NCBI GenBank assembly: GCA_012727895.1
Contig: JAAYGG010000003.1
Location: 1 to 50,008 of the forward strand
Length of the DNA stretch: 50,008 bases
Source: Bacillota bacterium
GTDB lineage: Bacteria > Bacillota > UBA4882 > UBA10575
Direction: 5' to 3'
Both the position numbers and the translations under genes were made by a program. Positions 40,954 through 43,095 of this stretch are shown here, piece by piece. Position 1 is the stretch's first letter. Each line of letters begins with the position of its first letter. The notes beneath the pieces were generated by a model that had not been told where the DNA came from, did not search any database, and saw only the letters and a program-made list of their open reading frames with translations.

Positions 40954-42285
40954 CTAAAACAGGCTCAAAAATATCTGGGCGATTGTAAAATAGGTCAGCA
41001 GCCCGAGAGCATCCATGATAGTGGTGATCAAAGGGCTGCTGGCCACCGCCGGATCCAACCGCAACTTGGTGAGGATAAAGGGCAGGACAACCCCGACCAG
41101 ATTGGCAATGATCACAATCGCCAGCATGGTCAGGCCGATGATCACCCCGATGAGCGCTCCTCCCCGGAAGACTCCCAGAAGCCAGCCGGCTGTCCCCAAG
41201 GTGAGCCCCAAAAGCGTCCCCACCAGCAGTTCCTTGCAAAAAGTCTTGAACCATTTTCCCGGTTTGATATCTTCAGTCACCAGGGCCCGCACCACCAATG
41301 TTGCCGCTTGGGAACCGGTATTTCCCCCGGTATCGATTAATAGCGGGATGAAAAAGGCCAGTATCATCGCGGCGTTGAGGGTTTCCTCAAAAACGGCAAT
41401 GATCCCTGAAGAGATGAGGTTGATGAAGACCAATGCCAGAAGCCAACCGACTCGCTTCGTATACAAGGTCAAAACCCCGGCACTCTTGTAGCTCGTTCTC
41501 AGCGGCGTGACGGAACCGGTCTTGTGAATATCCTCTGTCGCCTCTTCCTTGGCAATGGCGATGACATCGTCAACAGTAATAACACCAACCAGCCGGTCTT
41601 CCTTATCCACCACCGGCAAGACCAGCAGGCTGTATTTTTCAAAGAGCCGGGCCACTTCTTCCTGGTCCAGATCCTCCGGGACCTTCACTACTTTTCTGTG
41701 CATAATCTGACCCACCCGGGTCTCCAGGGGCGCCACCACCAGTTCCCGGAGGCTGATCACACCCACCAGCTTTTTATCGCGTGTTACTACATAAATATAG
41801 TAGGCGTTCTCGGCGGAAGGCGCCACTTTCCGCAGGTAGGCAAGGGTCCCGCCGACGGTCAGGTTTTCCGGGATAGCCACAAATTCGGTGGCCATCAGCC
41901 CGCCGGAGGTATCCTCCTCGTAGGCCATGAGTTCTTTTAATTCTTCGCCGGCTTCTTTCATCAGCGTCAGGAGTTTTGCTGCTCTTTCCTTGGGGAGTTC
42001 CGCCAGGATATCCACGGCTTCGTCGGAGTACATCTCTTTCAGGATCTCCGCTGCCGTCCCCACCGGCAACCGCTCCAAAACAGCGGCGGCCTCCGGCACT
42101 TCCATCTCTTGCATGATGATGGCGGACTGTTCATGGGGGATAAGGAGGAAAAACCTTTCCTGCTCCTCCAGGGAAAATTCGTGCAACGAATCGACCAGAT
42201 CTGCGGGATGCAATTCCTTCACAAGCTCCAGGAGTTGCTGAACCCTGCCTTCCCGAAAAAGAGAATAGAGAATGGGCTGAACCAC
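40954..42285 (-). CDS. mgtE: Magnesium transporter MgtE
   Basis: Dimeric Mg2+ channel gated by cytoplasmic Mg2+. The 443-residue protein has the superhelical N domain (LHPADLVDSLHEFSLEEQER...), two CBS domains (AYYIYVVTRDKKLVGVISLR; LLVLPVVDKEDRLVGVITVD) and five C-terminal membrane helices with the pore segment PLLIDTGGNTGSQAATLVVR. The start is GTG at 42285 after GGAGGAGG. The 238-nt leader with its own strong promoter carries two terminator-like hairpins, so expression is probably controlled by attenuation. Confidence 0.95.
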   Translation of the reverse strand: MVQPILYSLFREGRVQQLLELVKELHPADLVDSLHEFSLEEQERFFLLIPHEQSAIIMQEMEVPEAAAVLERLPVGTAAEILKEMYSDEAVDILAELPKERAAKLLTLMKEAGEELKELMAYEEDTSGGLMATEFVAIPENLTVGGTLAYLRKVAPSAENAYYIYVVTRDKKLVGVISLRELVVAPLETRVGQIMHRKVVKVPEDLDQEEVARLFEKYSLLVLPVVDKEDRLVGVITVDDVIAIAKEEATEDIHKTGSVTPLRTSYKSAGVLTLYTKRVGWLLALVFINLISSGIIAVFEETLNAAMILAFFIPLLIDTGGNTGSQAATLVVRALVTEDIKPGKWFKTFCKELLVGTLLGLTLGTAGWLLGVFRGGALIGVIIGLTMLAIVIIANLVGVVLPFILTKLRLDPAVASSPLITTIMDALGLLTYFTIAQIFLSLF

Positions 42286-42314
42286 TTTCCTCCTCCTTTC
42301 CCGGGTAAGGCAGG

Positions 42315-42335
42315 AAAAATGCCCCGGCAGGGGCA
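42315..42335 (-). terminator. Leader terminator proximal to mgtE
   Basis: Six-bp GC-rich stem TGCCCC/GGGGCA with a 4-nt loop, followed by TTTTT on the minus strand, ending 30 nt upstream of the mgtE start codon. Confidence 0.7.
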
Positions 42336-42368
42336 GGAAATCTGGGGGATCCCTCAATTCTCAGGGCG

Positions 42369-42397
42369 AAAAACCCCGGGGAGAAAAACCCTCCCGG
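42369..42397 (-). terminator. Leader terminator distal to mgtE
   Basis: CCGGGAG pairs with CTCCCCGG (one bulged base) around a T-rich loop and is followed by TTTTTC on the minus strand. Confidence 0.55.
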
Positions 42398-42432
42398 AGC
42401 AAGATTCCGGCCTCACCCGTATGGTGGTTTCT

Positions 42433-42458
42433 GCGGGGAAGACCCCGCGCTTTTTTTC
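42433..42458 (+). terminator. Plus-strand terminator shape inside the mgtE leader
   Basis: Read on the plus strand, GCGGGG-AAGA-CCCCGC is followed by a run of seven T. No plus-strand gene ends nearby, so it may end read-through from the acetyltransferase region or simply be the reverse of a leader hairpin with an A-rich flank. Confidence 0.35.
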
Positions 42459-42529
42459 TTCCAGTCGTTGCCAACTAGGGCCAGAATCCATCTTCTTCAC
42501 CCCTTGGTTGATCATTTCTTCCCTAGTTT

Positions 42530-42558
42530 AGTTTAATTTTTTTAGCCCTCCCTGTCAA
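42530..42558 (-). promoter_or_regulatory. SigA-type promoter of mgtE
   Basis: A perfect TTGACA (42553-42558) and TAAACT (42530-42535) are 17 nt apart on the minus strand. The predicted start is near 42523, giving a 5' leader of about 238 nt. Confidence 0.72.
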
Positions 42559-42580
42559 TTGGCGCCATTAATTTTTACAG

Positions 42581-42624
42581 AAAAAAAATACCCGGGTCGC
42601 AGGGCGTATACGTACGCCACCCGG
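42581..42624 (-). terminator. Terminator of the Gre-type gene
   Basis: A two-tier hairpin (CCGGGT/ACCCGG with inner GGCGTA/TACGCC) is followed on the minus strand by an unbroken run of eight T. It lies about 20 nt after the gre stop and just before the mgtE promoter, separating the two units. Confidence 0.85.
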
Positions 42625-42645
42625 CCTGCGCCTGGGCGTTTATCC

Positions 42646-43095
42646 TCAGTACTCAGGGGAGAAAGAAATCTCTTTGATCCGGTAACGGAAAGTCCCGGCC
42701 GGTGCAGCCACCGTAACCTCCTCCCCCGGCCTTCGCAGAATTAATGCCCTTCCGGCCGGCGACAGGCAGGTAACATCCTCAATCCGGTTCTCCCCCTGAT
42801 ATGGCAGGACAATCCGGAATTTAAAACAATCCCCGCCCGCCAAATCCTCCACATCCACTTCACTGCCGATTACCACCAAAGGAAACCCCTTCCCGGCCTC
42901 TCCTGGGGCAAGGGTTTTCAGCGCCTTTTCCAATCCACGCAAGTATTTATCGAAAAAGTCCTCAAATTCATCGCATTCTACCGAATCCTCGGGAAAACAC
43001 TGGTCGATAATCCGGTCCCGGTCTTTCTCCATCATTGCCAGGTGTTCCTTTAATTTGGCGATCTGTTCCTCCGCGGCATTAACCTCTCTATCCAT
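42646..43095 (-). CDS. GreA/GreB-type transcription elongation factor
   Basis: A 149-residue protein with an N-terminal coiled coil (AAEEQIAKLKEHLAMMEKDR) rich in acidic residues (FPEDSVECDEFEDFFDKY) and a C-terminal FKBP-like domain typical of Gre factors (VVIGSEVDVEDLAGGDCFKF, EDVTCLSPAGRALILRRPGEEVTV). Gre proteins enter the RNA polymerase secondary channel to rescue backtracked complexes. Whether the tip acidic pair needed for cleavage is conserved is unclear by eye, so it may be a Gre-like regulator. ATG at 43095 follows GGAGAGGTG. Its leader contains a terminator-like hairpin. Confidence 0.8.
   Translation of the reverse strand: MDREVNAAEEQIAKLKEHLAMMEKDRDRIIDQCFPEDSVECDEFEDFFDKYLRGLEKALKTLAPGEAGKGFPLVVIGSEVDVEDLAGGDCFKFRIVLPYQGENRIEDVTCLSPAGRALILRRPGEEVTVAAPAGTFRYRIKEISFSPEY

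Follow-up and report, generated by a model that had tools for sequence, protein, structure and literature searches.

A predicted uORF attenuator in the leader of a Bacillota mgtE gene and acidic-start uORFs in mgtE leaders of the phylum

The mgtE leader studied here is probably a translation-controlled attenuator, in which a uORF would govern mgtE expression with low Mg2+ as the putative signal. The sensor is likely the ribosome that translates this uORF. The kind of mechanism is already known from the enterobacterial leader peptides MgtL and MgtQ; the Bacillota mgtE version was unmatched in Rfam, Pfam, NCBIfam or the searchable literature, and literature searches, which covered subscription journals thinly, returned no report of mgtE leader peptides in Bacillota.

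The DNA analyzed, called the window below, is a stretch of 50,008 nucleotides (contig JAAYGG010000003.1); all positions refer to it, and all features lie on its minus strand unless the plus strand is named. An initial annotation had proposed that the leader may be an unrecognised ion-sensing or attenuation RNA. The attenuation part of this proposal stands, with conserved terminator, antiterminator and anti-antiterminator segments. Ion sensing in the aptamer sense is unsupported, since the conserved blocks are explained by the uORF start and the competing stems, and since relatives keep the uORF topology while swapping the RNA sequence. The annotation overlooked the 45-codon uORF, the 10-bp stem between the uORF start and 42412-42403, and an antiterminator formed by 42419-42394 with 42327-42302.

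The mgtE leader and known RNA families

The mgtE gene (40957-42285) starts with a GTG at 42285 and carries MgtE_N, CBS and MgtE domains in a Pfam scan. Its sigma-70-type promoter, TTGACA-17-TAAACT (42558-42530), had been called near-consensus, which agrees with its 10 of 12 matches in a consensus scan; it is kept in the congeners. The leader length of ~238 nt upstream of the GTG (42524-42286) was also correct. The leader is kept in two congeners, and the three sequences are 80-85% identical, so that this exact RNA shows almost no covariation and its conservation could partly reflect kinship. The 101-nt core of the leader has a fold with z = -5.5, and 0 of 200 shuffles were equally stable.

In an Rfam scan of the window, the search that had been suggested as a check, no family reached its gathering score and no known RNA class was found, and a permissive scan of 42100-42700 (E up to 10) gave chance-level matches alone, with the M-box not among them. 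The earlier view that this is not an M-box is borne out: RF00380 has no match in the window or in the 16 genomes of the family (0/16), as against 16 of 61 genomes in a wider sample. The leader is real, conserved and outside the M-box and every other Rfam family.

Several of the hairpins described earlier are less conserved than the leader as a whole. The 7-bp hairpin with a GCAA loop is present at 42478-42461, within the uORF, but just its 4-bp core is kept in both congeners, and for this reason the GNRA hairpin was rejected as the key element. It is followed, as described, by an A-run and then by a GC hairpin (42448-42433), which also lies within the uORF and is variable. Both hairpins with T-runs that had been read as terminators were located, at 42399-42369 and 42335-42315. 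The first, however, sits inside the coding frame of the uORF and is weakened in the congener L007, and it was rejected as the main switch on these grounds. The second, TGCCCC-TGCC-GGGGCA-T5, is a near-perfect intrinsic terminator that is identical in all three species. On the plus strand, a terminator-like hairpin with a T7 run (42432-42449) was also considered and set aside; it is absent from the congeners, has no plus-strand gene upstream, and is probably the mere complement of the variable GC stem and the A-run.

A conserved uORF in the leader

The ORF listing and the comparison of the three species show a uORF of 45 codons (MDSGPSWQRLEEKKRG..., 42354-42491) before mgtE, with 44 and 52 codons in the congeners. 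Its Shine-Dalgarno sequence, AAGGGGTG (42498-42505; AAGGAGTG in the congener L008), stands at the usual spacing from the ATG, and ribosome site, ATG and frame are all preserved across indels in both congeners. Codons 1-9 (MDSGPSWQR) are base-for-base identical in the three species and are followed by a divergent coding tail. We infer that the uORF is translated.

Could this uORF instead encode a small protein that has a function in its own right, such as binding to MgtE, while the stems are ordinary leader structure? The conserved start region and the good ribosome site would fit. Conservation is limited to the first residues, however, while the sequence and length of the tail vary; the frame overlaps the segments of the switch described below, and the peptide has no Pfam or NCBIfam match. 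We consider such a function very improbable. More broadly, ten uORF peptides from the leaders of this study were tested against NCBIfam and Pfam, and none matched a leader-peptide or protein family.

Competing stems and the proposed mechanism

Computation of the leader folds gives two mutually exclusive stems, the choice between which would depend on translation at the uORF start, with a predicted 1:2 versus 2:3 switch in all three species. Segment 1 (42479-42489) consists of the first uORF codons. When the start is free, the MFE structure of each species contains stem 1:2, in which GGAUUCUGGCC (42489-42479) pairs over 10 bp with GGCCGGAAUC (42412-42403), a part of segment 2 (CGGGUGAGGCCGGAAUCUUGCUCCGG, 42394-42419). 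Segment 3 (42302-42327) comprises the 3' arm of terminator 2, its U-tract and GCCUUACCCG. When codons 1-6 are blocked, as a mimic of a ribosome, the predicted fold switches in all three species to a 22-bp antiterminator of segments 2 and 3, in which CGGGUGAGGC-C-GGAA-UCU-UGCUCCGG (42419-42394) pairs with CCGGGGCA-UUU-UUCC-U-GCCUUACCCG (42327-42302). Besides the terminator arm and U-tract, the second strand of this helix takes in one half of a hairpin (42286-42319, found in the folds and in the duplex test) by which the mgtE Shine-Dalgarno sequence is masked, and one helix would therefore lift both blocks. In the duplex test, the antiterminator has energies of -48.9, -47.3 and -45.5 kcal/mol in the three species; for shuffled tails the mean was about -25 to -28 kcal/mol (sd 4), and 0 of 300 were as stable in each species.

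Based on these folds, which are thermodynamic and ignore co-transcriptional kinetics, the following mechanism can be suggested. The uORF would be translated from its own ribosome site. If its start is free of ribosomes, or if the uORF is fully translated, stem 1:2 would form between the uORF start and GGCCGGAAUC, allowing both terminator 2 and the hairpin 3:4 that masks the SD to form, with mgtE off. If ribosomes load and then pause or abort in the first codons, segment 1 would be covered and segment 2 left free to pair with segment 3, so that terminator 2 would be lost, the mgtE ribosome site opened and mgtE turned on. The signal may be low Mg2+, favouring abortion on acidic or proline-containing N-termini through Mg2+-dependent destabilisation of the ribosome. 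Pausing or abortion of the ribosome, the identity of the signal as Mg2+ and the direction of control are all inferred here. The uORF stop lies 18 nt upstream of terminator 2, and a ribosome finishing there would therefore cross stems 1:2 and 2:3 and leave terminator 2 free. One prediction is inconsistent with the full-translation step: when a ribosome is placed at the uORF stop in L007, stem 1:2 is not restored in the predicted fold.

Another explanation is that the leader is an unrecognised riboswitch whose aptamer, built from the 10-bp closing stem, the GCAA hairpin, the A-run and the UACGGGUGAGG block, binds Mg2+ or Mn2+ and chooses between terminator and antiterminator; the frame would then be incidental. 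The strong core fold (z = -5.5) is what such an RNA might show, the A-run and the UACGGGUGAGG block are conserved, and the lack of any synonymous change in the first nine codons, where ~27% would be expected from mgtE, may reflect a constraint at the RNA level. Yet the Shine-Dalgarno sequence, ATG and frame survive indels, the antiterminator accounts for the UACGGGUGAGG block, and neither the GC hairpin nor the greater part of the GCAA stem is conserved. Orthologous leaders also miss the core while retaining a uORF at the same place. We therefore regard a riboswitch as unlikely, and leaders that resemble orphan riboswitches can turn out to be uORF attenuators.

Orthologous leaders in the family

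A DNA-level search found no similarity to the leader outside the genus, and the orthologues were therefore reached through the MgtE protein. Orthologous mgtE genes of other genera (53-60% identical) have leaders without DNA similarity detectable by search, yet a uORF is found about 200-250 nt upstream. Peptides of these family uORFs include MDSDLYGDSNPR, MDSDLYGDGSS, MESEFHSDSIPRP, MESDLYGDSIPKPRRR and MDTDPYPNKW, and uORFs starting with MDSDLYGDS, MESEFHSDS, MESDLYGDS and MDTDPYP lie at the same place as in the window. A second mgtE class (35% identical) carries MDADSSNGT uORFs, likewise at this place, as seen among the seven leaders examined. In these relatives the sequences are replaced, but a uORF is kept, and in most leaders its ribosome site and start still pair with sequence from further along the uORF. 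For the family orthologues L011 and L025, the fold predicted with a ribosome at the start leaves the terminator in place; an AAAGGG/CCCUUU antiterminator drawn for these two was dropped, as it is not the most favourable of the predicted folds.

The peptide of the window differs from these orthologues. Its first ten residues, MDSGPSWQRL, hold a single acidic residue, and the M[DE]x[DE] pattern of the other genera is reduced in its N-terminus, MDSGPSW, to one acid and one Pro. At the codon level, ATG GAT TCT GGC CCT of the window aligns with ATG GAT TCT GAC CTT of the leader L009, which suggests that Asp4 was replaced by Gly4 in the lineage of the window genus. The peptide of the window appears to be a diverged member, with D2 kept and D4 replaced by G4-P5, in which a response to Mg2+ is less certain.

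This loss of the second acid from MDSGPSWQR raises the question of whether the uORF attenuator of the window genus senses a signal other than Mg2+ through ribosome pausing, such as proline or tryptophan supply, EF-P activity or general translation. All three species have Pro at codon 5 and Trp at codon 7 and miss Asp4, and MgtL and related leaders have been found to respond to proline translation as well (PMC11552253). However, a lone Pro or Trp codon makes a weak sensor, the downstream gene is a Mg2+ transporter, and M[DE]x[DE] is retained at this position in sister genera. A non-Mg2+ signal is quite unlikely in our view, and low Mg2+ is the signal that we prefer for the attenuator.

The genome of the window also contains an mgtE paralogue, and no acidic uORF was found in its leader (L021). 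This second mgtE of the genus (L021, L022 and L023, from contig C130 of genome G000 and from congeners) is preceded by a conserved ORF of 62 aa (MQRESRPSLRRIYTWLQQG...EEAVYLL.GR...), which is unrelated to the acidic uORFs.

Comparison with known Mg2+-responsive leaders

The enterobacterial peptides MgtL and MgtQ are documented cases in which an unstable nascent chain serves to sense Mg2+ (PMC11282234, PMC8092293). In E. coli MgtL, the EPDP start leads to ribosome drop-off at low Mg2+, and changes of Glu2 and Asp4 abolish expression of a downstream fusion (PMC11282234). In Salmonella, translation of mgtB needs Asp2 and Glu5 of MgtQ and works through a 1:2 / 2:3 / 3:4 switch that lies over the start of the uORF (PMC8092293). 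Abortion at low Mg2+ on acidic or proline-containing N-termini was shown for the E. coli peptide (PMC11282234) and inferred for the Salmonella one (PMC8092293).

MgtL (MEPDP..., upstream of mgtA in E. coli and Salmonella) resembles the Bacillota leaders in having competing leader stems and a short uORF ahead of a gene for a Mg2+ transporter; it shares acids at codons 2 and 4 with the wider Bacillota family, and the signal proposed here is likewise premature ribosome release at low Mg2+. The Bacillota leaders differ from MgtL in preceding an MgtE gene, in their longer uORFs (28-52 codons) and in lacking sequence similarity past the first residues. They would act through intrinsic terminators and SD masking, where MgtL depends on Rho, and the window peptide is without the second acid. 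MgtQ of Salmonella mgtB is similar in its three stems, of which 1:2 lies over the uORF start, 2:3 makes the downstream gene accessible and 3:4 masks it; unlike the window element, which adds an intrinsic terminator, it has 8 codons, is intergenic and acts at the level of translation only. Regulated function, acidic spacing and stem logic are shared with MgtL and MgtQ, and we therefore propose that the Bacillota leaders may work alike. There is no sequence homology between the Bacillota uORFs and MgtL or MgtQ, we do not claim them as homologues, and the window peptide holds one half of the acidic pattern.

Two other leader types deserve mention. The M-box also controls mgtE-type genes through an intrinsic terminator; it is missing from the window and the family, and in some relatives it stands in tandem with an acidic uORF. 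The mgtE motif of Thioalkalivibrio (SRC-65-1) is a candidate structured mgtE leader that includes the SD region (PMC11109978), but it has been reported from one proteobacterial genus only and was proposed as a riboswitch without a uORF (PMC11109978); we set it apart by its description.

Acidic-start uORFs before mgtE in Bacillota

In the wider survey, 100 upstream regions were taken from 186 Bacillota genomes with mgtE and pooled with the earlier leaders to give 145 leaders, in which we looked, within the last 320 nt, for SD-preceded uORFs starting with M[DE]x[DE]. Such uORFs (for example MDADP, MDTDP and MESD) are present in 33 of the 145 leaders; dinucleotide shuffles gave 0.37, with never more than 2 in any of 30 rounds, and the reverse strand gave 0. 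By their family labels the 33 leaders span at least 13 Bacillota families, and they include related genomes, so that 33 is not the number of independent origins; in one of them, L161, the uORF overlaps the mgtE start and is probably spurious. The excess is specific to mgtE, with M[DE]x[DE] uORFs in 0 of 30 SSF transporter leaders and 1 of 26 CorA leaders (MDGDPSKQ, L197).

Pro at position 5, which played no part in the selection, occurs in 16 of 36 acidic uORFs and in 23 of 144 other uORFs (p = 5e-4), with all four proline codons in use. Of the 32 nt that make up the ribosome site and start of the acidic uORFs, 21 pair with sequence from further along the uORF, compared with 11 in other uORFs of the same regions (p = 9e-7). 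A search that was independent of mgtE, for an SD followed by MDADP in 398 genomes, found ten short uORFs with a stop, eight of them upstream of mgtE, one downstream of an M-box and one unassigned. Five leaders (L071, L077, L119, L140 and L152) have a full M-box at gathering score (150-160 bits) upstream of the acidic-start uORF that precedes mgtE.

With a little more belief than doubt, we suggest that Mg2+-sensing leader peptides of the form M-[D/E]-x-[D/E]-(P) control mgtE across the Bacillota by ribosome destabilisation. They would replace the M-box in some lineages and stand directly behind it in others, as two independent sensors, an RNA aptamer and the ribosome, in series on one transcript; the window leader would be a diverged member with an intrinsic terminator and SD masking as its outputs. 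That unrelated uORFs ahead of mgtE share this acidic start in at least 13 families suggests that the ribosome may be a widespread Mg2+ sensor, and the acidic-start signature offers a sequence-based route to finding such peptides.

Some single loci may also be of interest. The five leaders with an M-box apparently hold two Mg2+ sensors in series, and tandem leaders of this kind would let the two be compared on one RNA. The acidic uORF upstream of mgtE in one of them, L071 (minus strand), forms a single near-perfect hairpin of >30 bp (z = -8.6), which spans its own start and the sequence up to the mgtE ribosome site. The acidic uORF of the CorA set (MDGDPSKQNKYKQNFRSRYAAATKNKTA, L197:1333-1419) has a strong SD and lies immediately upstream of corA. 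In L234, from a genome without mgtE, an M-box is followed by an MDADPEPQMDH uORF and then by a gene that by eye resembles an ABC-type permease, an arrangement which may represent a Mg2+-regulated ABC transporter.
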